This document shows, one piece after another, positions 7,828 through 38,591 of a stretch of DNA of 54,835 nt (the first letter of the stretch is position 1; the number at the start of each line of letters is the position of its first letter). The notes beneath the pieces are model-generated. The model saw only the letters and a program-made list of their open reading frames with translations. It did not search any database and had not been told where the DNA came from. Origin of the DNA: Candidatus Endomicrobium labiotermitis (GTDB lineage Bacteria > Elusimicrobiota > Endomicrobiia > Endomicrobiales > Endomicrobiaceae); assembly GCA_009778965.1 (NCBI GenBank), contig WRFE01000004.1, forward strand, positions 1 to 54,835, in the 5' to 3' direction. A program made the position numbers and the translations under genes.

Positions 7828-10800
7828 ATGAAAAAGACAGCGTGTTTAAAAAGCAGCAGGCTTTTTCGGGTATTGTTGTCATTATTTATGGTTATGCAAG
7901 CGTTCTCTTCCGTGTACGCGCAGGTGAATGTGGTTACGTCCGCGGATTTTGCGGCTAATTGGAACGGCGGAATATCGCCGATTGTAGTTCTCGGAGCTCC
8001 TCTTGACGCGGCCGGCAATTACGGAATATCCCTGGCAAATTCCTTAAATGCGTTTAGCGGAGCGAGCATATCGCTTAACGGTTATAGCGGCACGCCCAAC
8101 GGAAATGCGCTGATAATGAACGGGTATACTTTGTCTTTTGCTCCCGGCTGGAATAACAACATGAGCGCGAGCATCTCTGACTTAAGCATTTACGGAGCTA
8201 CTAACGGCGCAGTCTCATTTTTTGGAAACGGCGTCGGAGCACACACTTTTACGATTGACGGAACATATTTTTACGGAAACATAAACAGCTCAAGCGGCGG
8301 AGCAGTTAATATTCAGTCTCAAATGCAAAGCGCCGCCGCAAACTCTTATATGTTAACCGATAATGATTTTATAAGCAATCAAGCATTTGGCGGCGGCGGC
8401 GCGGTTTATATGGCTTCCAATAATTCCATTTATAGCGGCGGCAGTCCGAGCGTTTTTTCCGTAGTGGACAACACGGGGACAAACAGCCATTACATATCGC
8501 TAAATCAGTCCGGCGGCGGAGTCACTGATAACGGTCAAGGAAATACCGGTAAAAATACCGGTAATGACGCAAGTAAAAAGATGACTATTGCCAACGGCGG
8601 CGGTATATATTTCATGGCCAATAACGCCAATGGCGGAAATGTTATCAATCAATTTACCGCGCAGGGCTATACGTATTATCAAAACTATGCAACCGGCATG
8701 GGAGGCGCTATTTATAACGGCGTTCTCAACGGTAATAATCCGGCGGTAAACAATTTTAATATAACAGGCGGGGTATTTTCTCAAAACCAAGCCGGCGCAG
8801 GCGGCGGCGGAGCTATAGCTAATGAAATAAACGGCGGCAATACGACGGTAAATTTTAATATCAACGGACAATTTTATTCCAATTTAACATCCGGCAACGG
8901 CGGTGCGATTTCTAACCTCGTTGGCGACCAGGATTCTCCTTACGGCGGAACAGTCACTTTTAATATAGAAGGTTCGTTTGACAGCAATAAAGCTGTAAAC
9001 GGCGGAGCACTTTACAATAATATACAAGCCGGTCAGTCAAACGTGACGGTAAATATTAATAACGTCAACGGCTCTTCGGTCACAAACAATATTACAAATA
9101 ATTTCGCAAGCGGCAACGGCGGGGCAATATATAATACTTCGGGCAACAACAATCCCGGCACAGCCGTCGTTAATATAGCAGACGGCATTAACTTTTACGG
9201 AAACGGAGCCAACTACGGCGGAGCGATTTATAATACAGGTAACGGAGTAATAAATCTTAATACCGTTAGCAGTTTATCCGGCGGATTCGGCATAAGTTTT
9301 CAAAACAACTACGCCGGTGCTTCAACGCAAGGCGCAGACATTTACCAAAGCTCTTCTACGTCCGTTATAAACATAGCGGGCGACGGCCAGGTTAATATTT
9401 TTGGAGGGATCGGCGGCAAAGGTACTATTAACCAGTCCTCAGGCACCACTCTGTATTTGGACGGCGCAAGCGAAAGCTTTGGTTACACCGGCGTATTCAA
9501 CCAGGCGTACGGCGCAATTCTGGACTCTGCAGGACAGATGTTTGGCGGAGCAAATAATTTCGGAGGGGTTGCCAATATAACAAGCATTGCCGTGGATTTT
9601 TATTTTAACGCCAATATGCTAAGCGGCTCCGTAATGAACTATACAGCCGACTCCGCGGGACGCACATCTGTCGGCGCTGCGACCGGAGCAGGTACGCCCG
9701 GAATAAGTTTTGCCGGTACAGGCGCGACAGTAAACTTTGGCACCAACCAGCTGCAAGGTTTGTATTTGCTGCAAAATGACATCTTCAACGGGCAGGCAAA
9801 TACTATTAACTTTGGCAACAGCGATATTACTTTCGGTTCTGTCAATTATACCGGCGGAACTACCTACAATTTTTTTAATAATTCCATATTAGATCTTTCT
9901 AATTCTAAGCCCAATTCCAATGAATACAACCAATATGCTTTCGGCAGTCTGAACGCCCCGGACGGCACAACGCTGCTCAGCTTTAAAATAGGCAATGACA
10001 TGACTTCTACGCAGGCCGATACTATTAATGCTCTGACAGGCAGCGGCATCTTAGGACTGGGCAAAATATATGTTAACGACTCAAACGGCGTTATAACCGG
10101 CCAATACCGCATTATCTACGGCAATGTACTGGATTGGACGGCAAACGGTCTTACCCAGTACGTAGCGACAAGCTCAGGAACTTATACGTTAGAAACAATA
10201 AGCGATCAATATATAAATTTCACCAGCATAGGCACCGGCATTTCGTCAGGCACAACGTCAACGGTTAATCCCGGCGGCGGCACAACTACTACTACGGACA
10301 ATCCCGGCGGCGGCTCAACCACTACTACGACTGATCCAAGCGGCGGCTCAACCAGCACGACCACTGATTCCGGCTCCAACACGACTTCTACAACTACGAC
10401 AGATCCCAACGGTACCACCACCACGACTACCGGCTCCGGCGGTTCCACAACCACAACTACTACGGATACCGGCGGCGGCTCAAGCTCCACGGTGTACAAC
10501 GTCGACGGTTCCACAACAACTACTACTACGAATTCCGACGGCAGCACAACAACAACGACAACAAATACTGACGGAAATTCGACTACCACAACCACGAATC
10601 CCGGCGGCGGCACTTCCATTACAAATAATAATCCGGGTGGAACTGCGACAAGTACCATTACCACCAACTCCGATGGTAACACTACAACCACCACAACCAC
10701 TATTATAGATTCTAACGGCAGCACCGCAGCCACTACTACTAATTCCGACGGCAGCACCAGTACGACATACACGGATTCAGGCGGAACGGTTACCGTTACC

Positions 10801-13800
10801 ACTAACCCGGATGGCAGCGTTACTATTAATTCTACCGATCCGAGCGTTCCTTCCGGCACCGTACCTCCGGGAGGCGGTGACATTATAACAACATCGGATG
10901 GCGGTACTATTACCATAGCGCCCGGAGCGGGAGGCACAATCGTAATCACGGTAGATACGCCTGATGGCGGCGAAAGTATCGTCACGGCAGACCCGGGCGG
11001 TGCAGGCGGTTCTAAGTGCGATACGACAGATTCCGGCGGCAATACTATTAATACGACAACCGATTCCGGCGGGAATTCATCTACGACAAGCACTTCGCCC
11101 GACGACGGCGGCGGCAATAACAGCACTACCGCTACCAATACTAACCCCGACGGAAGCACAGACAGTTCAACGACGGATACCGGCGGCAGTAACGTAGGCA
11201 TTACGACTGACCCCAACGGAAACACCGAGAGTACCACAACCGACGGCTCAGGCGGTACCACCACTACCACCACTGACGGCAGTGGCGGCACTAGCACTAC
11301 CACAAACGACGGTTCCGGCGGCACTACAACCACCACGACCGACCCTAACAACGGAAACACAACTACTACCGTAAACAACGGCGGCGGCGACACCACAACC
11401 ACGACCGACCCTAACGGCGGCAGTGTTACCGTTACCAACCCTGACGGCAGCACCGCCGGCACAACGACTGACCCCAGCGGCGGCGCGACAGGCACGGTTA
11501 CAACTCCGCCTCCGACCACCCCTACGGTTCTTGTATTGAATGATGTCAATGACCTTGACAGCATTGCGACTTCCATAGGTATGTCTTCCGCAGCGGCACG
11601 TGCTTATCAAATCAGCGCGGGCGAGACTTATTATAACGATATGCCCCTTAGCGATATGGCGGAAGGTGTATTCTCCGTATACGGCGCGGACAGAACATCG
11701 GTATTAAGCGGGTTGAATCTGACTGAAGTGGAAGCCGGCTCAAGCACAGTAACACATCAATCTCTTTTCAAAATCATTAATGACGGAACGGCAAAAACGT
11801 TTATATTAGAAGATTTAACCATACAGGATGCTTACTCCTCGGCCGGCGGTGCAGTTATTAATATGAGCGACCCGAACGCAACGGTCTCGGTTACCAACCT
11901 GCTTATACAAAATAATCATTCCGACGGGGACGGCGGCGTGTTTAACGTAACAGCCGGCGTTATGACAGGATGGAATATTGTTTATGATCATAACACTTCC
12001 TCAGGCAATGGCGGTGCTGTTTATAATACTGCTTCTATAACTAAACACGGCGGCTCGTTTACAAACAACTATGCGGTGGGCAACGGCGGCGCTGTTTATA
12101 ATGACGCGTCCGATCCGAATAATATGCTGTCAATATGCGCCGGCAGCGGCGGTGACTATGTTACTCCTTTGGGTACATTTAGCGGTATGCTTATTACCGG
12201 CAATAAAGCAGGCGGTTTAGGTGGCGCTGTTTACAATGCCGCGGGAAGCTATATGTCCATGGCTTCACTTGCAGGCGCGGATGTGGTACTTGATGAAAAT
12301 TACTCCAACTGGAACGGTACTACCGGAACACGCAACGACATTTATAACGAGGGCACACTTAATTTTGACAGCACAGGCGGCTCCTGGTATGTAGGTGGCG
12401 GTTTCGCGGGCAGCGGCACGATAAATAAATACAGCCCCGTTGTGCTGAATCTCGCCGCGACCAGCGACAGTTCGAATTTTGTCGGTAATTTCAACCAATA
12501 TAACGGCATTGTAAATATTAACGGGACATTTTTTGGCGGACAAAGTATCATAGCAAGCGGCATATTGAACTGGAATGCAGGCGCCGTAAGACCTGCTACG
12601 GCATTACTTCAGGTAATAAGCGGTACTATCAATATATACGGCGATTTAATTCTGGACAAGCAGTATGATATTATAGGTCCGGCTTCAACGCTTAATCTTT
12701 ATCCGGGCGGATCTTACAATATAGCGGGCGGCACGGTTTTCCTTAACACGACTGATATGCTTGTAACTCCGCAGGGTACTTACGGCACGGCAAGCCAGAG
12801 CGACGGCTATCTTGTTATAGGCGGGGCTGATATGCTTGTCTATTCCGGCGCATTTGAACAGACCGGCGGCGTAATACGGCTGGAGAACCAGGCCACAGCC
12901 TATCTTAATTATAATCTGCCCGGAAGCGGCATTTACGGCGGGGATATTGTCATTACAAATGCAACGTTATTCGCGGAAAATTATACTATTACTTACGGCG
13001 CGGGCATTGGGACAATAGTTCCCACAAGCGGCTCTCTTGCGATGGGAGACAATGCTGCTTTTAATTCCATAGACGGAGTTATACAAACGCATAATTTCGC
13101 GGGTTCGTTTGGCTTATTCTCCGTAATGTCCAGTTCAGGACAGACTACCGCCAACTTTATGGTGGATGTTGACGCGCGGGCATGTAAATCCGATACTCTC
13201 GTATTCGCGCAAGGAGCGGCCGTTATCGGCAGTACAACGCCTTTCATATACGGCAACGGCGTTAACGTTTCAAGTCATCCCGAATTTACAGTGAAGGACG
13301 TTTATGCGACCGGAGGCTTTATTATGCTGGAAGACATAAATCTTATAAATATGCCTATAACCGAGGTTGTTCCTTTCACTATTATAGACCCGCCGGCGGC
13401 GCCGTTTAGCGATCCGCGACTTATATTTGTAGCAACAGATAAAAAATATGAAACGGCAGCCGGTATATACGGGCTTTATTCGATGGGAATGGGCAATTAC
13501 GAGTTGCGTATGGAATCTATTAACCCGGCTGCTCCACGCGGACAAGCGGCGCTGCTGGCAATGTTTGAAGGGCAGCTTACCGCAAACGGCGTTTTGTTTG
13601 ACCACGTATTTTTTGACAGCAATCAAATGGTTGTGGACGAATATAAGTATGAGTATAAATTTTTGCCCAGACAGTTTTTCAAAGAGAACAGGGAAAAATC
13701 CTATTGGGTAAAAACCTATTATGAAAACGAAAGATTATCTGTTTCGGATAGCGTTGACTTGAAAAACAATCTTTACGGCGCGATTTTCGGGCTTGATTTT

Positions 13801-14460
13801 GCCGCTAAAGACATCGGCGGCAATTCATATTTTATGCCAAGCGTCTTTGCAGGTTATACCGGAGAATCACAAAGCCTTGCTTCGGCGTCGATGAGCCAAA
13901 ACGCCGTAAGAGCCGGGTTTATGGCATCGGTAATGGTTAACGACGTTTATACGGCTTCGGCTTTGGTTTACGGCGGCGGATACGGCAACAATATGGAAGT
14001 CAAAGGAAACGAAGAAAATCTTTACGGTTTGTTTGCCGGAGCGGCCGTTAAAAATTCTTATAATATGTATATGAACAATTTTGTTTTGCAGCCTTTTGCC
14101 ATGGCGTCTTATATTTTTTACGGCAAGCAAAGCTGGAATTCTTCTTACGGCAATATAGAAATGGAAACGGATTCTATGAACGGCTTTACTCTTTCGCCCG
14201 GAGCCAACCTTATTTACGCTCTGGATACGTGGAGTTTCTTAGCCGGCGGCGCGTACGTTTATAATCTTGGAGACAGAATTACCGGAAGAATAGGAAATAT
14301 AGAACTCCCGGCTTTCAACGCGGGACTTGGCTATTTTGAATGGACGGCGGGCGCTTCCAAAATATTTTCGAAAAACTTGAATATTTGGCTTAAAGGCGTT
14401 TATAAAACCAACCGCTATTCGGATATCGGCGTAAAAGCGGGCGCAGGGTGGAGGTTCTAA
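7828..14460 (+). CDS. Giant Pmp-like autotransporter adhesin with Thr-rich stalk
   Basis: 2210 residues. A long signal peptide (about 1-32, ending SVYAQ) is followed by a beta-helix passenger (about 33-800) with many GGAIYN / GGAVYM repeats, the pattern of chlamydial polymorphic membrane proteins and autotransporter adhesins. Residues about 809-1229 are an extreme Thr/Gly/Ser/Asp/Pro-rich tract (TTTTTDPNGGS type). A second GGAVYN beta-helix occupies about 1230-1950, and the C-terminal 255 residues form an autotransporter beta-barrel (from SYWVKTYYENE) ending in aromatic Phe (GAGWRF). The product should be exported by type V secretion and displayed on the surface. AAGGAG precedes the ATG. The next gene begins 2 bases after its stop, with its ribosome binding site inside this gene's 3' end. 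The barrel half and passenger are intact. Confidence 0.9.
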   Translation: MKKTACLKSSRLFRVLLSLFMVMQAFSSVYAQVNVVTSADFAANWNGGISPIVVLGAPLDAAGNYGISLANSLNAFSGASISLNGYSGTPNGNALIMNGYTLSFAPGWNNNMSASISDLSIYGATNGAVSFFGNGVGAHTFTIDGTYFYGNINSSSGGAVNIQSQMQSAAANSYMLTDNDFISNQAFGGGGAVYMASNNSIYSGGSPSVFSVVDNTGTNSHYISLNQSGGGVTDNGQGNTGKNTGNDASKKMTIANGGGIYFMANNANGGNVINQFTAQGYTYYQNYATGMGGAIYNGVLNGNNPAVNNFNITGGVFSQNQAGAGGGGAIANEINGGNTTVNFNINGQFYSNLTSGNGGAISNLVGDQDSPYGGTVTFNIEGSFDSNKAVNGGALYNNIQAGQSNVTVNINNVNGSSVTNNITNNFASGNGGAIYNTSGNNNPGTAVVNIADGINFYGNGANYGGAIYNTGNGVINLNTVSSLSGGFGISFQNNYAGASTQGADIYQSSSTSVINIAGDGQVNIFGGIGGKGTINQSSGTTLYLDGASESFGYTGVFNQAYGAILDSAGQMFGGANNFGGVANITSIAVDFYFNANMLSGSVMNYTADSAGRTSVGAATGAGTPGISFAGTGATVNFGTNQLQGLYLLQNDIFNGQANTINFGNSDITFGSVNYTGGTTYNFFNNSILDLSNSKPNSNEYNQYAFGSLNAPDGTTLLSFKIGNDMTSTQADTINALTGSGILGLGKIYVNDSNGVITGQYRIIYGNVLDWTANGLTQYVATSSGTYTLETISDQYINFTSIGTGISSGTTSTVNPGGGTTTTTDNPGGGSTTTTTDPSGGSTSTTTDSGSNTTSTTTTDPNGTTTTTTGSGGSTTTTTTDTGGGSSSTVYNVDGSTTTTTTNSDGSTTTTTTNTDGNSTTTTTNPGGGTSITNNNPGGTATSTITTNSDGNTTTTTTTIIDSNGSTAATTTNSDGSTSTTYTDSGGTVTVTTNPDGSVTINSTDPSVPSGTVPPGGGDIITTSDGGTITIAPGAGGTIVITVDTPDGGESIVTADPGGAGGSKCDTTDSGGNTINTTTDSGGNSSTTSTSPDDGGGNNSTTATNTNPDGSTDSSTTDTGGSNVGITTDPNGNTESTTTDGSGGTTTTTTDGSGGTSTTTNDGSGGTTTTTTDPNNGNTTTTVNNGGGDTTTTTDPNGGSVTVTNPDGSTAGTTTDPSGGATGTVTTPPPTTPTVLVLNDVNDLDSIATSIGMSSAAARAYQISAGETYYNDMPLSDMAEGVFSVYGADRTSVLSGLNLTEVEAGSSTVTHQSLFKIINDGTAKTFILEDLTIQDAYSSAGGAVINMSDPNATVSVTNLLIQNNHSDGDGGVFNVTAGVMTGWNIVYDHNTSSGNGGAVYNTASITKHGGSFTNNYAVGNGGAVYNDASDPNNMLSICAGSGGDYVTPLGTFSGMLITGNKAGGLGGAVYNAAGSYMSMASLAGADVVLDENYSNWNGTTGTRNDIYNEGTLNFDSTGGSWYVGGGFAGSGTINKYSPVVLNLAATSDSSNFVGNFNQYNGIVNINGTFFGGQSIIASGILNWNAGAVRPATALLQVISGTINIYGDLILDKQYDIIGPASTLNLYPGGSYNIAGGTVFLNTTDMLVTPQGTYGTASQSDGYLVIGGADMLVYSGAFEQTGGVIRLENQATAYLNYNLPGSGIYGGDIVITNATLFAENYTITYGAGIGTIVPTSGSLAMGDNAAFNSIDGVIQTHNFAGSFGLFSVMSSSGQTTANFMVDVDARACKSDTLVFAQGAAVIGSTTPFIYGNGVNVSSHPEFTVKDVYATGGFIMLEDINLINMPITEVVPFTIIDPPAAPFSDPRLIFVATDKKYETAAGIYGLYSMGMGNYELRMESINPAAPRGQAALLAMFEGQLTANGVLFDHVFFDSNQMVVDEYKYEYKFLPRQFFKENREKSYWVKTYYENERLSVSDSVDLKNNLYGAIFGLDFAAKDIGGNSYFMPSVFAGYTGESQSLASASMSQNAVRAGFMASVMVNDVYTASALVYGGGYGNNMEVKGNEENLYGLFAGAAVKNSYNMYMNNFVLQPFAMASYIFYGKQSWNSSYGNIEMETDSMNGFTLSPGANLIYALDTWSFLAGGAYVYNLGDRITGRIGNIELPAFNAGLGYFEWTAGASKIFSKNLNIWLKGVYKTNRYSDIGVKAGAGWRF
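10252..11515 (+). repeat. Low-complexity Thr/Gly/Ser-coding tract in autotransporter
   Basis: About 1.26 kb of degenerate repeats coding runs of 2-6 threonines punctuated by DPNGG, NSDGS or DGSGG. All four Thr codons are mixed, so the DNA repeat is much less regular than the protein repeat. A lone Cys sits at about residue 1063. The tract separates two beta-helix blocks and probably acts as an extended stalk or O-glycosylation region (inference). Confidence 0.8.
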
Positions 14461-22948: not shown

Positions 22949-22957
22949 CAGTTTTTT

Positions 22958-23358
22958 GTCATTCCCGAGAGTTGTTATCGGGAATCCACGTTAGCCGTTA
23001 AAAAACTTAAATAGCAATAAAATGTAATGAAAGAAAATTTCTTTGTGTATATAATGACAAATGATAACAGAGGAACATTATATACAGGTATTACAAGTAA
23101 TTTAATCAAGCGCGTCTATGAACACAAAAATAAATTATGTGATGGTTTTACTGAAAAATATTCTTTAACAAAACTTGTGCATTATGAAATTTTTAAAGAT
23201 GCAGAAAACGCAATTGAAAGAGAAAAAGTTTTAAAGAAATGGAATCGTATTTGGAAAATAAGATTGATTGAAAATAGTAATAAAGACTGGAAAGATTTAT
23301 ATGATGAGATTATAGCTTAGTAAAAAATGGATTCCCGACTACGGATTTCGGGAATGAC
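22958..23358 (+). mobile_element. Palindrome-ended element carrying a GIY-YIG nuclease gene
   Basis: The left end (22958-22988) is GTCATTCCCGA, 9 bases, TCGGGAATCCA. The right end (23328-23358) is TGGATTCCCGA, 9 bases, TCGGGAATGAC. Each 31-bp end is a hairpin, and the stems and outer bases of the two ends are exact inverted repeats of each other. They bracket one small nuclease gene whose stop codon lies 7 bases before the right end. The inner sequence CCACGTTAGCCGTTAAAA after the left end and TTAGTAAAAAATGG before the right end recur in the 109-bp element at 38463-38571, which has no gene. The element splits the adaptor and MacB genes of one operon. Confidence 0.75.
23027..23320 (+). CDS. 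Small GIY-YIG nuclease, element-encoded
   Basis: 97 residues forming a bare GIY-YIG catalytic domain. It begins FFVYIMTNDNRGTLYTGITSNLIKRVYEHK, where Y..I and LYTG are the GIY/YIG strands and Arg in LIKRVYEH is the catalytic Arg; the Glu in AENAIEREKVLKKW is the metal-ligand region. Compact members of this family are common, scattered and mostly uncharacterised (UPF0213/YhbQ-like). Its position inside inverted hairpin ends, in the middle of an unrelated efflux operon, suggests it nicks or cuts DNA for the spread of the element. That role is inferred. Confidence 0.85.
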   Translation: MKENFFVYIMTNDNRGTLYTGITSNLIKRVYEHKNKLCDGFTEKYSLTKLVHYEIFKDAENAIEREKVLKKWNRIWKIRLIENSNKDWKDLYDEIIA

Positions 23359-23375
23359 GACAGGATCTAATTACA

Positions 23376-27348: not shown

Positions 27349-30300
27349 TTATTTTCCCAACATATACCTTATTCCTATATTTCCGTATATGTTTTGATAT
27401 CTTGACGCTGTGTAAAAATTACCGTTCGCAAACAGTTTCCAGTCTTGCGCTATAAATATTTCTCCGCCAAGACCTAAACCTAACTGTATCTTTCCTTCTT
27501 CTGTTCCTCTGCTCTTAAAACTTACGTTCGTTCCTTCAAATACGCTTTCTATTTCAGGCTCTTTACCCGTCATCAAATATTTTCCTTCTAATTTGCCGTA
27601 AATATTCCAATCTTTTTTGTCATACTCTATTCCTGCTCCCAATCTTGCGGCGCTTCTTATATACTTTCCGCCTTTTACATTCAAATTCACTGCCTCTGCT
27701 CCGCTTTCTTTAAACCCTTTATAATTTACATTTTGAAGTTCTAATCCAAAATACGGTTTAACGTTAGTATTTTCTTTTATCTCTACTCTCAAAGCTCCCT
27801 CTATATCCGCGCTTATCGTAAATGCGTCCACATCGCCTTTCGCTGTACTGTTTAGTAATGCTATACGTCTTTCAGTACTGAAGCTGTCAAAACTTCCCAA
27901 CAGCAATCCTTTCAATTCCCACTTTTCATCTATTGTATAGCCGCCGTATACACCCAAACCTTTTTTATTTCCTTTAGCGCTGTTGTCGCCTTGGCTTATA
28001 TTGTTGCCGATAAATCTCGCAAACACGCCCCAAAGTATTTCCTTGTCACCTATGTATCTGTCAAATCCTGCCATTAGTCCCCAGGAGTTGTCTTTGTAGT
28101 TGCTCGCGGAATTCTCATTTTCTTTAAATATTTCTACTCCGCCTTTTACCTGCGTCCAGATTCCGCTGTTAGTCACATCTTCTATCGCATGATTTTTTAT
28201 TTTGTCATATATTTCATTATTCGGACTATCTGCTGCGGCATTTCTTATTACGTTTGAATTAAAGTATCCTGAAACTTGCGACAAAGCCGCTTTCTGATTT
28301 GCTTCGCTCTCTAATATTAAATCTGTTATAATATCCGCCATTTCGTCGCTTAGCGTTGGAGTATCCGATAGTCTATCTAATGCGTTTGCTGCTTCTTTTT
28401 GGTTAAAGCTTAAGCCGTTTATATTTCTAAAAGTACTTAACCATTTTCCGTTTACTACCAATTGTGCTATATTCGCATTTTCCGGATTTGCCTGCACCGT
28501 GAAAGTCAGCTGTTCGTTTTGCAGACTTCCGTAATAACTGCTTGTACTGGAAAACATTCCTGTCAGCTGTGTTGATATTACTATGTCATACACCACATTA
28601 TCATATCTTCCTGCTCTGGATTTTATATCTAAATTTCCGCCGATTGTCGCGCTTCCTGCATATATTTTGTCATTGTTTCCGTTTGCCCATATATCTATTT
28701 TTGTGTTTGATGTGATTGAAAATTCCTCTACCGTTATGGTATTTACTGTTTCATTTTGCATATTTAATATATTGCCCGCAGGCAATACAATACTTGGGCC
28801 GGTAAATGTCGCGTTATCCAGAAATATGATGTCTCCGTCAGTTATGTTAAACACGGTGCTGTTTATTATTGTGTTTCCGCCAAATGTTAAACTTCCGGGT
28901 CCGGTTTTGTTTATTATTCCGCCTGAGTCTACATCAACTCTCATACCGTTTGGTAATATGATATTTCCATTTATAGCGTTAAAATTAAGATATCCGTTGT
29001 TGCTCAAGAATATATCATTCAAATCGTTGCCCGCATAGTTGTTTTTAAACAATATTGTTAAATCCGAGTTTGTCGTATTAAAATCTACAATACTTCCGTT
29101 GTTATGTATTGCTCCTCCGACCCATGCTGAATTATTTTCAAATTTTACCAGTTTTGCGCTAAATGTTATTGTGGAATAATTAGCGTAAATAGCACCTCCA
29201 TAACCATAGCTGGAAGCAGTATTGTTTAAGAAATTGATATTGCCTTGACTCACAAAGGAAAAATAAGAGTTGTAATAATCATAAATCGCTCCGCCATGTC
29301 CATAGTCAGAACCGGAAACAGTATTGTTGTTGAAATTAATATCTCCTGAACTCACAAAAGAATATGATGAGGAATAACTGCAAATAGCGCCGCCATAGAC
29401 AATAGATCCGCTGGATATGTTGTTTAAGAAATTAGTATCACCGTAACTTACAAATGAAAAAGAAGAATTGCTAAAACCGTAAATCGCGCCGCCTTCTCCG
29501 TAGGCAGTATTTTTTAAGAAATTAATATCACTGTAACTCACAAAAGAAAAAGAAGATTTATTATTGCCGTAAATCGCTCCGCCGTTACCAGAAAAAGTGT
29601 TATTGTTTGAGAAATTAATATTGCCGTGGCTGAGAAAGGAAAAATAGGAGCCGTTGCCGTCGTAAATCGCGCCGCCGGAGCCAGCGGTGTTGTTTACGAA
29701 GTCAATGTCTCTGAAACTCATAAAATAGAAATTAGAAAAAAAAGAGTTAATAGCGCCGCCGCCATAGGAAGCAGTGTTGTTTTTAAAATTAATACTGCCG
29801 AAACCATAACTGGCAAAGGAATATGTAGATGAACTGTCGTAAATCGCGCCGCCGGCATTGGCAGCAGTGTTGCTTGTGAAATTAATATTACCAAAACCGT
29901 AACTGACAAAGGAATACGCAGAGAAATAGCTATAAATGCTGCCGCCGGAGGCGTAAGCAGCGTTGTTGAAGAAAGCAATATCATCAAAGCTGGAACTGGC
30001 AAAAGAAAAATATGAACCTGAAGAAAAAATCGCTCCGCCAAATCCGCTTGTTCCGCTTGATATATTATTGCTAAACAGTATATTAGAACCGCTGAAGTTC
30101 CATGTTGAATTTTGGGCAGAATATATCGCTCCTCCGCTGCTTAGGGCTATGTTTCCGCCAAATATAGTTTCTCCGCTGAAACTCCATATTGAATATTGGG
30201 ACGAATATATAGCTCCGCCTATGCCGCTTGAGATATTATTAAAAAACAATGTTTGATTACTGTTAAAATTTATGTTTGGAATAGATTCGTTATTTGTATA

Positions 30301-31149
30301 CATTGAAGATATAGCTCCGCCATATCCGCCTGCTTTATTATCTGAAAATACAGCCGAATTCCCGTTAAATGTCATCGTAGAAAATACAAAGATCGCTCCG
30401 CCATAACCGGAACTGCCGGATGATATATTATTATTAAATGTTATATCAGGAGAAGTAAAAGTCATTTCGTTAAAACGATATATCCATATCGCGCCGCCGT
30501 TCACGGCTAAATTTGAATCAAATACTATATTATTTCCGGCAGCAAATGTCATTAAGCCGCTGTCAGCATATATTGCTCCGCCTGTATTACTTGAAAACAC
30601 TATATTATTGCCTGCAAAACTAATTATAGAGTTCATTGCATATATTCCGGCGCCAAGACCGTTGTTATAAACCGCATTATTTTTAAACAATACGTCATCA
30701 TTAAAATATATTTTTGCCGCGCTTGAATATATTACTCCGCCGTATGAATTGCTTACAGATGCTGATTTATTTGATTCAAATACTGCAGGCCCGTTAAATA
30801 TTATATGTGCGTTTGCCGCAGTTGATGCTATTACCCCGCCCCCATAAGGGTTTATATTGTTTCCGTTTTTTATCGTTATCCCGCCGTTAAAAGTTAAAGT
30901 TATACCCGGCTCGTATATGCTTAACAAATTGCCGTTGTTGCTCAAATCTATAGTATTGCCGTTACCTGTAATAGTCAGGCTTGACGGTATAACAGGGTTT
31001 GAGATATTCCAAGATTCTTTAGTTATGTCTCCGGTAAGTATTGCATTTATTCCTGTTGTTATGCTGGACTGAAACGCATCATAATCCGCAAATACATTGA
31101 CCGCTAAAACAGACATTACAAAGGAAACTGTCAACAATACTTTCTTCAT
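27349..31149 (-). CDS. Second Pmp-like autotransporter adhesin
   Basis: 1266 residues. The signal peptide (1-21) ends VNVFA. Residues about 70-700 are a beta-helix passenger built of roughly 20-30-residue units, each with NN(T/I)A..GGAIY followed by SSYSFVSYG.INF-type strands. Residues about 980-1266 form the autotransporter barrel (from WTQVKGGVEIF), ending RYMLGK rather than the usual aromatic residue. The GGAIY motif family matches that of the giant autotransporter at 7828, but the Thr-rich stalk is absent and the repeats are Phe/Ser/Asn-rich. GGGAG lies about 7 bases before the ATG. A 12-bp hairpin sits just upstream of that site. It is probably exported by type V secretion. Confidence 0.88.
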   Translation of the reverse strand: MKKVLLTVSFVMSVLAVNVFADYDAFQSSITTGINAILTGDITKESWNISNPVIPSSLTITGNGNTIDLSNNGNLLSIYEPGITLTFNGGITIKNGNNINPYGGGVIASTAANAHIIFNGPAVFESNKSASVSNSYGGVIYSSAAKIYFNDDVLFKNNAVYNNGLGAGIYAMNSIISFAGNNIVFSSNTGGAIYADSGLMTFAAGNNIVFDSNLAVNGGAIWIYRFNEMTFTSPDITFNNNISSGSSGYGGAIFVFSTMTFNGNSAVFSDNKAGGYGGAISSMYTNNESIPNINFNSNQTLFFNNISSGIGGAIYSSQYSIWSFSGETIFGGNIALSSGGAIYSAQNSTWNFSGSNILFSNNISSGTSGFGGAIFSSGSYFSFASSSFDDIAFFNNAAYASGGSIYSYFSAYSFVSYGFGNINFTSNTAANAGGAIYDSSSTYSFASYGFGSINFKNNTASYGGGAINSFFSNFYFMSFRDIDFVNNTAGSGGAIYDGNGSYFSFLSHGNINFSNNNTFSGNGGAIYGNNKSSFSFVSYSDINFLKNTAYGEGGAIYGFSNSSFSFVSYGDTNFLNNISSGSIVYGGAICSYSSSYSFVSSGDINFNNNTVSGSDYGHGGAIYDYYNSYFSFVSQGNINFLNNTASSYGYGGAIYANYSTITFSAKLVKFENNSAWVGGAIHNNGSIVDFNTTNSDLTILFKNNYAGNDLNDIFLSNNGYLNFNAINGNIILPNGMRVDVDSGGIINKTGPGSLTFGGNTIINSTVFNITDGDIIFLDNATFTGPSIVLPAGNILNMQNETVNTITVEEFSITSNTKIDIWANGNNDKIYAGSATIGGNLDIKSRAGRYDNVVYDIVISTQLTGMFSSTSSYYGSLQNEQLTFTVQANPENANIAQLVVNGKWLSTFRNINGLSFNQKEAANALDRLSDTPTLSDEMADIITDLILESEANQKAALSQVSGYFNSNVIRNAAADSPNNEIYDKIKNHAIEDVTNSGIWTQVKGGVEIFKENENSASNYKDNSWGLMAGFDRYIGDKEILWGVFARFIGNNISQGDNSAKGNKKGLGVYGGYTIDEKWELKGLLLGSFDSFSTERRIALLNSTAKGDVDAFTISADIEGALRVEIKENTNVKPYFGLELQNVNYKGFKESGAEAVNLNVKGGKYIRSAARLGAGIEYDKKDWNIYGKLEGKYLMTGKEPEIESVFEGTNVSFKSRGTEEGKIQLGLGLGGEIFIAQDWKLFANGNFYTASRYQNIYGNIGIRYMLGK

Positions 31150-36184: not shown

Positions 36185-37042
36185 GTGAAGATTGGAGTTA
36201 AAAAGATACGTATAGGCATTATTGGTTTAGGGCAAATGGGCGGTTCTTTAGGGCTTGCCTTAAAAAAGAACGCCGGAAGCAAATACTATATAATAGGTAT
36301 AGCAAGAAGACAGGAAACTTTGAAAACCGCGCATAAAATCGGCGCGGTTGACAAAGTTTCTTTGTCTTTGCAAGACGTCAAAGGCTGCGATATTGTTGTT
36401 ATATGCACTCCGGTAGACACTATTGTTTCCATTTATAAGCAGTTATCTAAAATAGTTGGGGAGGATACAATTATTACTGATGCTGGAAGCGTGAAAGAAC
36501 AGATAGAACAACAATTACGAATTACAAATTACGAATTACGAAAAGAACGCTTGTCTTTTGTCGCGGCTCACCCTATGGCGGGTAATGAAAAAAACGGGAT
36601 TCTTTCCGCAAGCGCGGAAATGTTTAAAGCGGCGAATGTCGTAATAACCGGTTCATTAAAAAAATCATTGAAAAATGAAAAATTTGTTGCGAAAATGTGG
36701 AAAGATACAGGCGCTAATATAATAAATATGTCTGCGAAAAAACATGACGAACTTGTCGCTTTGACAAGCCATTTGACGCACTGTATAGCTTTTTCGTTTA
36801 ACAAAGTATATAAAGACGTTAAAAAGAAAAGTCCTGAAGTCGATAAAATCACGGCAGGATCGTTTAAAAGCATGGTGCGCGTCGCGTCATCAGGCGCGGA
36901 TATGTGGGCTCCTATATTTGCGGCAAACAGTAAAAACATAATTAAACATATGGATGCTTTTATAAAAGAGTTTAATATTTTTAAAAAAGTTTTGAAGAAC
37001 AAAGATAAAGTAAAAAAAGAAATTTTGAAAACGCAAAAATGA
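36185..37042 (+). CDS. tyrA: Prephenate dehydrogenase with repeat-derived insertion
   Basis: 285 residues from the GTG at 36185, which has GGAG 8 bases upstream (a GTG at 36176 overlaps that site). The NAD-binding GLGQMGGSLG is near residue 12, followed by VVICTPVDTI, DAGSVKEQI, HPMAGNEKNG with the catalytic His, and SHLTHCIAFSF. It converts prephenate to 4-hydroxyphenylpyruvate. Between GSVKEQIEQQ and LSFVAAHPMAG lies about ten extra residues (LRITNYELRKER) coded by an ATTACGA repeat. The frame is kept, so the enzyme may still work with a longer loop before the active-site strand. No ACT domain is present. Confidence 0.92.
   Translation: MKIGVKKIRIGIIGLGQMGGSLGLALKKNAGSKYYIIGIARRQETLKTAHKIGAVDKVSLSLQDVKGCDIVVICTPVDTIVSIYKQLSKIVGEDTIITDAGSVKEQIEQQLRITNYELRKERLSFVAAHPMAGNEKNGILSASAEMFKAANVVITGSLKKSLKNEKFVAKMWKDTGANIINMSAKKHDELVALTSHLTHCIAFSFNKVYKDVKKKSPEVDKITAGSFKSMVRVASSGADMWAPIFAANSKNIIKHMDAFIKEFNIFKKVLKNKDKVKKEILKTQK
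36512..36543 (+). repeat. ATTACGA-type 7-bp repeat inside tyrA
   Basis: CAATTACGAATTACAAATT followed by ACGAATTACGA: four to five imperfect ATTACGA/ATTACAA units in frame, coding QLRITNYELRK. The unit is found at three other places in the window. Confidence 0.75.
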
Positions 37043-37070
37043 CAAAAGCAGGTTTCAAATCCTCTCTTTT

Positions 37071-37151
37071 GTCATCCCCGAGATTTGTAATCGGGGATCC
37101 ACGTTAGTTGTTAAAATACATTAGGAAGAGATTGCGGGTCAAGCCCGCAAT
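37071..37151 (+). repeat. Palindromic element, hybrid copy between tyrA and aroA
   Basis: The left hairpin 37071-37101 (GTCATCCCCGA, 9 bases, TCGGGGATCCA) is the same 31-bp end as at 22958 and 38463, followed by the shared CCACGTTAGTTGTTAAAA. The right hairpin (37131-37151, ATTGCGGGTCAAGCCCGCAAT) belongs to the other family, also seen at 19717. The two ends therefore combine different families. Confidence 0.7.
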
Positions 37152-38450: not shown

Positions 38451-38462
38451 TAATATTTAACT

Positions 38463-38571
38463 GTCATCCCCGAATGTCTTAATCGGGGATCCACGTTGGT
38501 TGTTAAAAGATATAAGGAATAAAAGTATTTTTAGTAAAAATGGATTCCCGATTACAGATTTCGGGAATGAC
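38463..38571 (+). mobile_element. 109-bp non-autonomous palindromic element (MITE-like)
   Basis: The left end 38463-38493 (GTCATCCCCGA, 9 bases, TCGGGGATCCA) and right end 38541-38571 (TGGATTCCCGA, 9 bases, TCGGGAATGAC) match the ends of the GIY-YIG element at 22958-23358. Only 47 bases lie between them, starting CCACGTTGGTTGTTAAAA and ending TTTAGTAAAAA, the same inner flanks. The nuclease gene is absent. Relative to the other left end, the T-A pair in the stem is C-G on both arms, a compensated change. Confidence 0.75.
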
Positions 38572-38591
38572 AAAAAATAATGGGATTTAAG

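Follow-up and report, generated by a model that had tools for sequence, protein, structure and literature searches.

A single-domain GIY-YIG nuclease as candidate mobility partner of gene-less CGTC-tagged REP dimers in Candidatus Endomicrobium labiotermitis and other bacteria

The element at 38462-38572 of the window (the whole 54,835-nucleotide stretch analysed) is a gene-less, head-to-head dimer of CGTC-tagged REP units, and we propose that its mobility partner is quite probably the GIY-YIG nuclease encoded at 23027-23320 together with three paralogues in the same genome. The best reading of the data, all of them comparative, is that nuclease and hairpins would form one mobile system, similar to that of RAYT and REPINs with a different enzyme, of which we infer the cleavage and transposition steps. 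More generally, and with somewhat less assurance, we favour the view that a single-domain GIY-YIG nuclease, the only enzyme that these elements encode, would recognize GTC-tagged hairpins at both ends and spread itself along with hundreds of gene-less dimers, so that it would be to CGTC REPs what RAYT is to GTAG REPs. Two enzyme lineages (with and without a tryptophan at position 76, W76) would each go with a hairpin architecture of their own.

Three related elements lie in intergenic parts of the window (22957-23359, which carries the gene; 37070-37151; and 38462-38572). Hairpins bound all of them, with an unpaired TGTC or CGTC tag at the outer end and, in those that are intact, a CCA tail at the inner end. 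Their features are listed below, the REP units of the first and last elements being assigned from sequence and the left unit at 38462 also from family context.

22957-22988, plus strand: left REP of the GIY-YIG element, TGTC[ATTCCCGA..TCGGGAAT]CCA
23027-23320, plus strand: GIY-YIG nuclease gene, 97 aa (Pfam PF01541, E=6e-15)
23328-23359, minus strand: right REP of the GIY-YIG element, CGTC[ATTCCCGA..TCGGGAAT]CCA, inverted
37040-37074, no strand: 9-bp palindrome TGACAAAAG-n-CTTTTGTCA, which extends into the tag of the 37070 REP and gives the upstream gene its stop codon
37070-37101, plus strand: left REP of the third element, same class, ATCCCCGA stem
37131-37151, minus strand: right hairpin of the third element (stem and loop), other class, ATTGCGGG/CCCGCAAT, tag decayed
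38462-38493, plus strand: left CGTC-type REP unit, tag TGTC, stem ATCCCCGA/TCGGGGAT, tail CCA
38494-38540, no strand: middle of the gene-less dimer of about 110 bp, which other copies conserve and which matches the GIY-YIG element in its inner flanks
38541-38572, minus strand: right REP unit, inverted, tag TGTC, stem ATTCCCGA/TCGGGAAT, tail CCA

The 37070 copy is likewise a pair, its right hairpin being of a different class, and the tag that has decayed at 37131-37151 is an intact GACG at the same place in the sister species (G058). Nine of the ten palindromes of the TGACAAAAG-n-CTTTTGTCA kind in the 756 kb sampled adjoin a REP, and such a palindrome may be a target or the outer part of some elements. 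Two other genes of the window (7828-14460 and 27349-31149) are very large and repetitive, resemble genes of surface proteins and are rich in GGA(I/V)Y repeats.

The two hairpins at 38462-38572 face outward, the left one reading TGTC[ATCCCCGA..TCGGGGAT]CCA with a 9-nt loop (atgtcttaa) and its inverted partner having the ATTCCCGA stem and the loop aatctgtaa; as single-stranded DNA the element folds with z = -4.6. Its ends and inner flanks are the same as those of the GIY-YIG element at 22957-23359, and the sequence is as the preliminary description gave it, which had called the element a gene-less relative of the GIY-YIG element with a compensated change in the left stem (ATCCCCGA/TCGGGGAT) and an unchanged right stem (ATTCCCGA/TCGGGAAT). 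The whole of the ~110 bp recurs at three other places in the genome, in both orientations and at 83%, 82% and 74% identity over the full length (E-values 2e-26 to 2e-13), and again at the orthologous site in G058; because the middle is included in this recurrence, a chance match of the inner flanks is ruled out. In the full-length copies the variable position of each stem, left or right, holds T-A or C-G independently of the other stem and is always paired. The ends are not peculiar to this copy, since the family to which they belong has about 290 units per Mb throughout the genome, and most of the hundreds of REP copies have the tagged hairpins in common and not the middle. The earlier proposal of a non-autonomous copy depending on the nuclease fits well, but its wording as a derivative of one element was too narrow, because the unit is a head-to-head CGTC-type REP dimer and hundreds of copies share only the tagged hairpins. 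Like MITEs, the element is short and gene-less, has inverted ends, and shares those ends with a longer element of the same genome, the putatively autonomous 22957-23359; unlike MITEs, its ends are self-contained tagged hairpins and its putative partner is not a DDE transposase.

By their features the window repeats are CGTC-tagged REPs, a known superfamily with a CGTC/TGTC tag, stems of 8-9 bp starting with AT, a CCA tail, head-to-head dimers and many stem variants, which includes dRS3 of Neisseria and RPE-4 and RPE-6 of Rickettsia (Di Nocera, De Gregorio and Rocco, 2013; PMC3733652). A de novo hairpin search was run on 756 kb (40% of the genome), the remainder being searched by pattern. GTC preceded 141 of the 548 perfect hairpins found in this sample, mostly followed by C[CT], and ranked first of the 64 trinucleotides for enrichment in that position. 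The sample contains 219 REP units, largely intergenic, of which 142 are of type A (stem of at least 7 bp) and 77 of type B (base stem of 5-6 bp, GA bulge and variable inner stem). Close pairs (within 100 nt) are head-to-head in 60 cases, head-to-tail in 14 and tail-to-tail in 2, the predominance that is typical of the superfamily. The window units share with published CGTC REPs the unpaired CGTC/TGTC tag, the AT-starting stem, the CCA tail, the head-to-head dimers and the intergenic position; the stem of 8-9 bp with an unpaired CCA tail is found in them and in the 142 type A units, whereas the type B architecture, with its shorter base stem, is absent from the four families of the survey (PMC3733652). 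Loops are 9 nt in the window units as against the published 4-5 nt, a length seen in other classes of this genome, and we treat loop length as variable and not as a strict criterion because the survey itself lists odd loops for some families (PMC3733652). The Elusimicrobiota lie outside the phyla listed there, and a dedicated enzyme is proposed here where none was found in that survey.

Covariation of the stems, which the preliminary description had put forward as a check, is overwhelming. A pattern with both stem positions left free (TCATNCCCG..CGGGNATCCA) found 47 units in the genome, all 47 with C-G or T-A at these positions, and its reversed control found none. When units of the same genome were picked by tag, tail and span alone, the inner stem letters being unused, all seven free pairs were formed in 64 of the 158 units of span 21, representing 14 different stems, and pairing was all-or-none; control tags and control tails gave no fully paired unit at any span. 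Among 23 different stems, which had been preselected as fully paired, there were 45 both-side changes compared with 9.6 in shuffles. Shared descent of one or two subfamilies is ruled out as the source of the pairing by the 14 fully paired stems at one span and the empty controls. In type B repeats across the phylum, a fixed ATTGC-GA outer part is combined with an inner stem that varies freely and is still paired, which adds covariation at a second level within one hairpin.

The GIY-YIG subfamily to which the gene at 23027-23320 belongs has four members in this genome, the other three being the paralogues. Proteins of this subfamily are ~95 aa long with a single GIY-YIG domain, and Y8, Y19, R29, E66 and N85 are invariant in the 39 compared; by analogy with I-TevI and UvrC, we take these Tyr, Tyr, Arg, Glu and Asn residues to be catalytic. 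The structure model of the nuclease (pLDDT 91) is nearest in fold to UPF0213, followed by the branched-DNA nuclease Slx1. Small proteins of the UPF0213/COG2827 kind (PDB 1zg2, 1ywl) have the same single-domain fold and are the nearest solved structures, and the distant small GIY-YIG relatives tested in the phylum, unlike the subfamily, are without flanking hairpins. Slx1, a structure-selective enzyme that cuts branched DNA, has the GIY-YIG fold in common with the window nuclease, which has neither a RING domain nor an Slx4 partner and is ~20% identical to it. No member of the subfamily was found in the phage collection searched.

All four subfamily genes of this genome have an outward-facing tagged hairpin on either side, the hairpins being of differing sequence classes, and in an unbiased enclosure test on the 756 kb the subfamily was the only gene family repeatedly enclosed by outward REPs within 1.5 kb. 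The 248 genomes searched in the phylum (one per species) supplied the flanks of 53 subfamily members and of 20 distant GIY-YIG genes, and 80 named loci were added from all bacteria; loci with enough flank were scored for GTCA followed by at least five paired bases and C, within 250 nt and with the tag outward. Such hairpins stood on both sides at 36/47 phylum loci and 45/72 loci from all bacteria (at least ten phyla), and most of the loci scored negative carry variant hairpins on inspection. At shifted positions in the same loci both-side hairpins were found in 0/194 (phylum) and 0/282 (all bacteria) cases, and the distant GIY-YIG group had them at 0/19 loci, which rules out these relatives as part of the system. 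As named in the records, the hosts are Nitrospirota, Planctomycetes, Patescibacteria, alpha-, beta-, gamma- and deltaproteobacteria, Cyanobacteria, Omnitrophota, Zixibacteria, Chloroflexi and Leptospiraceae; in a Neisseria gonorrhoeae record the GIY-YIG gene lies between CGTC-1 (dRS3-like) hairpins. The bracketing of this subfamily by outward GTC hairpins in many phyla is new here, and because hairpins of the same kind bracket its genes outward across at least ten phyla, the nuclease is the best candidate for the enzyme that spreads the repeats. If the hairpins were instead host RNA elements (terminators or mRNA 3' ends) that nuclease genes adjoin by chance or by hot-spot insertion, their largely intergenic position would be expected and their pairing would be kept in the RNA too; we consider this very unlikely given the 0/476 shifted positions, the outward orientation, the agreement of left and right ends with each other and with the enzyme type, a copy number that follows the gene, and the presence or absence of dimers at orthologous sites.

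The agreement between ends and enzyme is close: 60 loci have type A hairpins on both sides, 28 have type B on both and one is mixed, and position 76 of the protein is tryptophan in 93/93 proteins of type A and 0/32 of type B. Paralogues in one genome follow the same rule (two A and two B in G000, three A and one B in G185, one of each in G136), so host background is not the cause of the match. State changes of W76 and hairpin type number 4-7 on the best tree and one on well-supported branches, and because these changes are few W76 is a candidate for specificity and not a proven determinant; convergent evolution of W76 with hairpin type is not established, the supported transitions being too few. 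Judged from these comparisons there are many distinct nuclease lineages, each with its own hairpin types.

Repeat abundance was compared with the presence of the gene in the 248 genomes, type A-like repeats being counted by a covariance model and type B by pattern. With this home-made model, whose E-values are rough and whose counts saturate near 30 per genome, at least 10 REPs were found in 43/63 genomes with the gene and in 20/185 without it (OR 17.7, p=7e-18), and the link is kept within genera (permutation p=5e-5). The suggestion made at the outset that copy number would track the GIY-YIG gene thus holds across the phylum. The distant GIY-YIG group has no effect on repeats (at least 10 REPs in 5/36 genomes). 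There are 20 REP-rich genomes without a detected gene and 13 gene-bearing genomes that are almost free of repeats, some of which carry gene copies broken by stops. The association has the opposite sign to that expected if the nuclease restrained or removed hairpins in a host or addiction-like function, which predicts fewer repeats with the gene, and we hold that reading to be highly improbable even with a fold that resembles structure-selective Slx1.

The tagged hairpins and head-to-head dimers also resemble the REPINs of RAYTs, and Y1 transposases occur in many of the phylum's genomes, so that a RAYT/Y1 tyrosine transposase might move the repeats as it does GTAG REPs, with the GIY-YIG gene as a passenger. 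However, no match to PF01797 (Y1 transposase) was found in this genome, which is 99.97% complete and has hundreds of REP units, and this rules out such a mover here. The phylum data are also unsupportive, since at least 10 repeats are present in 35/117 genomes with Y1 and 28/131 without (OR 1.6, p=0.14), with a weak trend within genera (p=0.02), whereas in a four-way table of the 248 genomes the GIY-YIG effect is present both with and without Y1. No Y1 gene flanked by CGTC repeats was found in the 2013 survey (PMC3733652), and as a general account of the repeats we give a Y1 mover hardly any credence.

Orthologous sites differ in the presence of these elements. The 38462 dimer, at the junction of aroA and plsC, is present in the sister species G058 and absent in G054 and G023, and the GIY-YIG element of 22957 is missing from the corresponding spacer in G054. 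In the G058 dimer downstream of aroA (L255), the loop of the right REP encloses another hairpin. The sufB-sufC interval of Azospirillum lipoferum contains the gene together with REP dimers, and three relatives lack them there. One site on Sphingobium plasmids exists in two forms, CGTC-hairpin-gene-hairpin-GACG in some strains and, within identical boundaries, a single palindrome, CGTC[hairpin]GACG, in others. The palindrome would be either the product of a collapse of the two ends into one or a target that is still unfilled; it is the form of TomTYG64 and TomTYG74 (L278, L281), whose sister strains have REP-gene-REP. No direct repeat, target duplication or fixed target is evident at the junctions compared (sister species; Azospirillum, Shinella and Sphingobium plasmids), the relatives being too diverged for base-exact empty sites. 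A repeat of ~650 bp that adjoins the GIY-YIG gene in Rhizobium plasmids (L264:1935-2614) is dispersed over other Rhizobium plasmids, and three records filed as plasmids (NZ_CP119142.1, CP090106.1 and NZ_CP104135.1) are chromosome-sized.

The main rival explanation is homing, in which the nuclease gene parasitizes pre-existing REPs by cutting a gene-less REP or dimer, so that repair copies the gene in, while the REPs themselves spread by other means. GIY-YIG enzymes are among the classic homing endonucleases, and the two states of the Sphingobium site are what filled and unfilled homing sites would be expected to look like. The single palindrome could equally well be a collapse product, however, and that of the main class, GTC[hairpin]GAC, is absent from this genome, which also rules it out as a required target. 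Homing alone does not predict that REP copy number rises with the gene, and some sites have neither the gene nor a REP; taken together, these points make homing rather unlikely in our view.

If nuclease and hairpins are one mobile system, the nuclease would recognize the folded hairpin at each end, as a single strand or cruciform, by its structure and not its sequence, and would cut beside the unpaired GTC tag. Whatever lies between two outward hairpins, gene included or not, would be released or copied, and host replication or repair would join it again elsewhere. No GIY-YIG nuclease is known to rejoin DNA, and host factors must therefore be assumed. Gene-less dimers with the right hairpin architecture would spread in trans, the 109-bp element being one such non-autonomous passenger, and selection would then act on pairing and not on stem sequence, giving the covariation; recognition by structure would likewise let stems drift while pairing, tag and tail stay. 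The arrangement resembles that of RAYT and REPINs in having a small nuclease gene between outward tagged hairpins, many gene-less dimers, and several pairs of paralogue and hairpin per genome, and differs in that the enzyme is GIY-YIG and not HUH/Y1, the tag is YGTC and not GTAG, and this genome has no Y1 gene.

In the open literature, with preprints and most subscription journals outside the scope of the search, no paper linking GIY-YIG nucleases to REPs was found. CGTC REPs are widespread in bacteria, and the 2013 survey, in which they 'apparently lack a dedicated transposase', left their mover open (PMC3733652). The GIY-YIG gene, which is easy to miss since it encodes no transposase, is a direct candidate for that role. 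If this is true, hairpin-based mobility would have been solved a second time, independently of the HUH/Y1 enzymes; the finding would explain the multi-copy 'GIY-YIG nuclease family protein' genes of many genomes, and it would offer biochemistry natural pairs of enzyme and hairpin with differing specificity.
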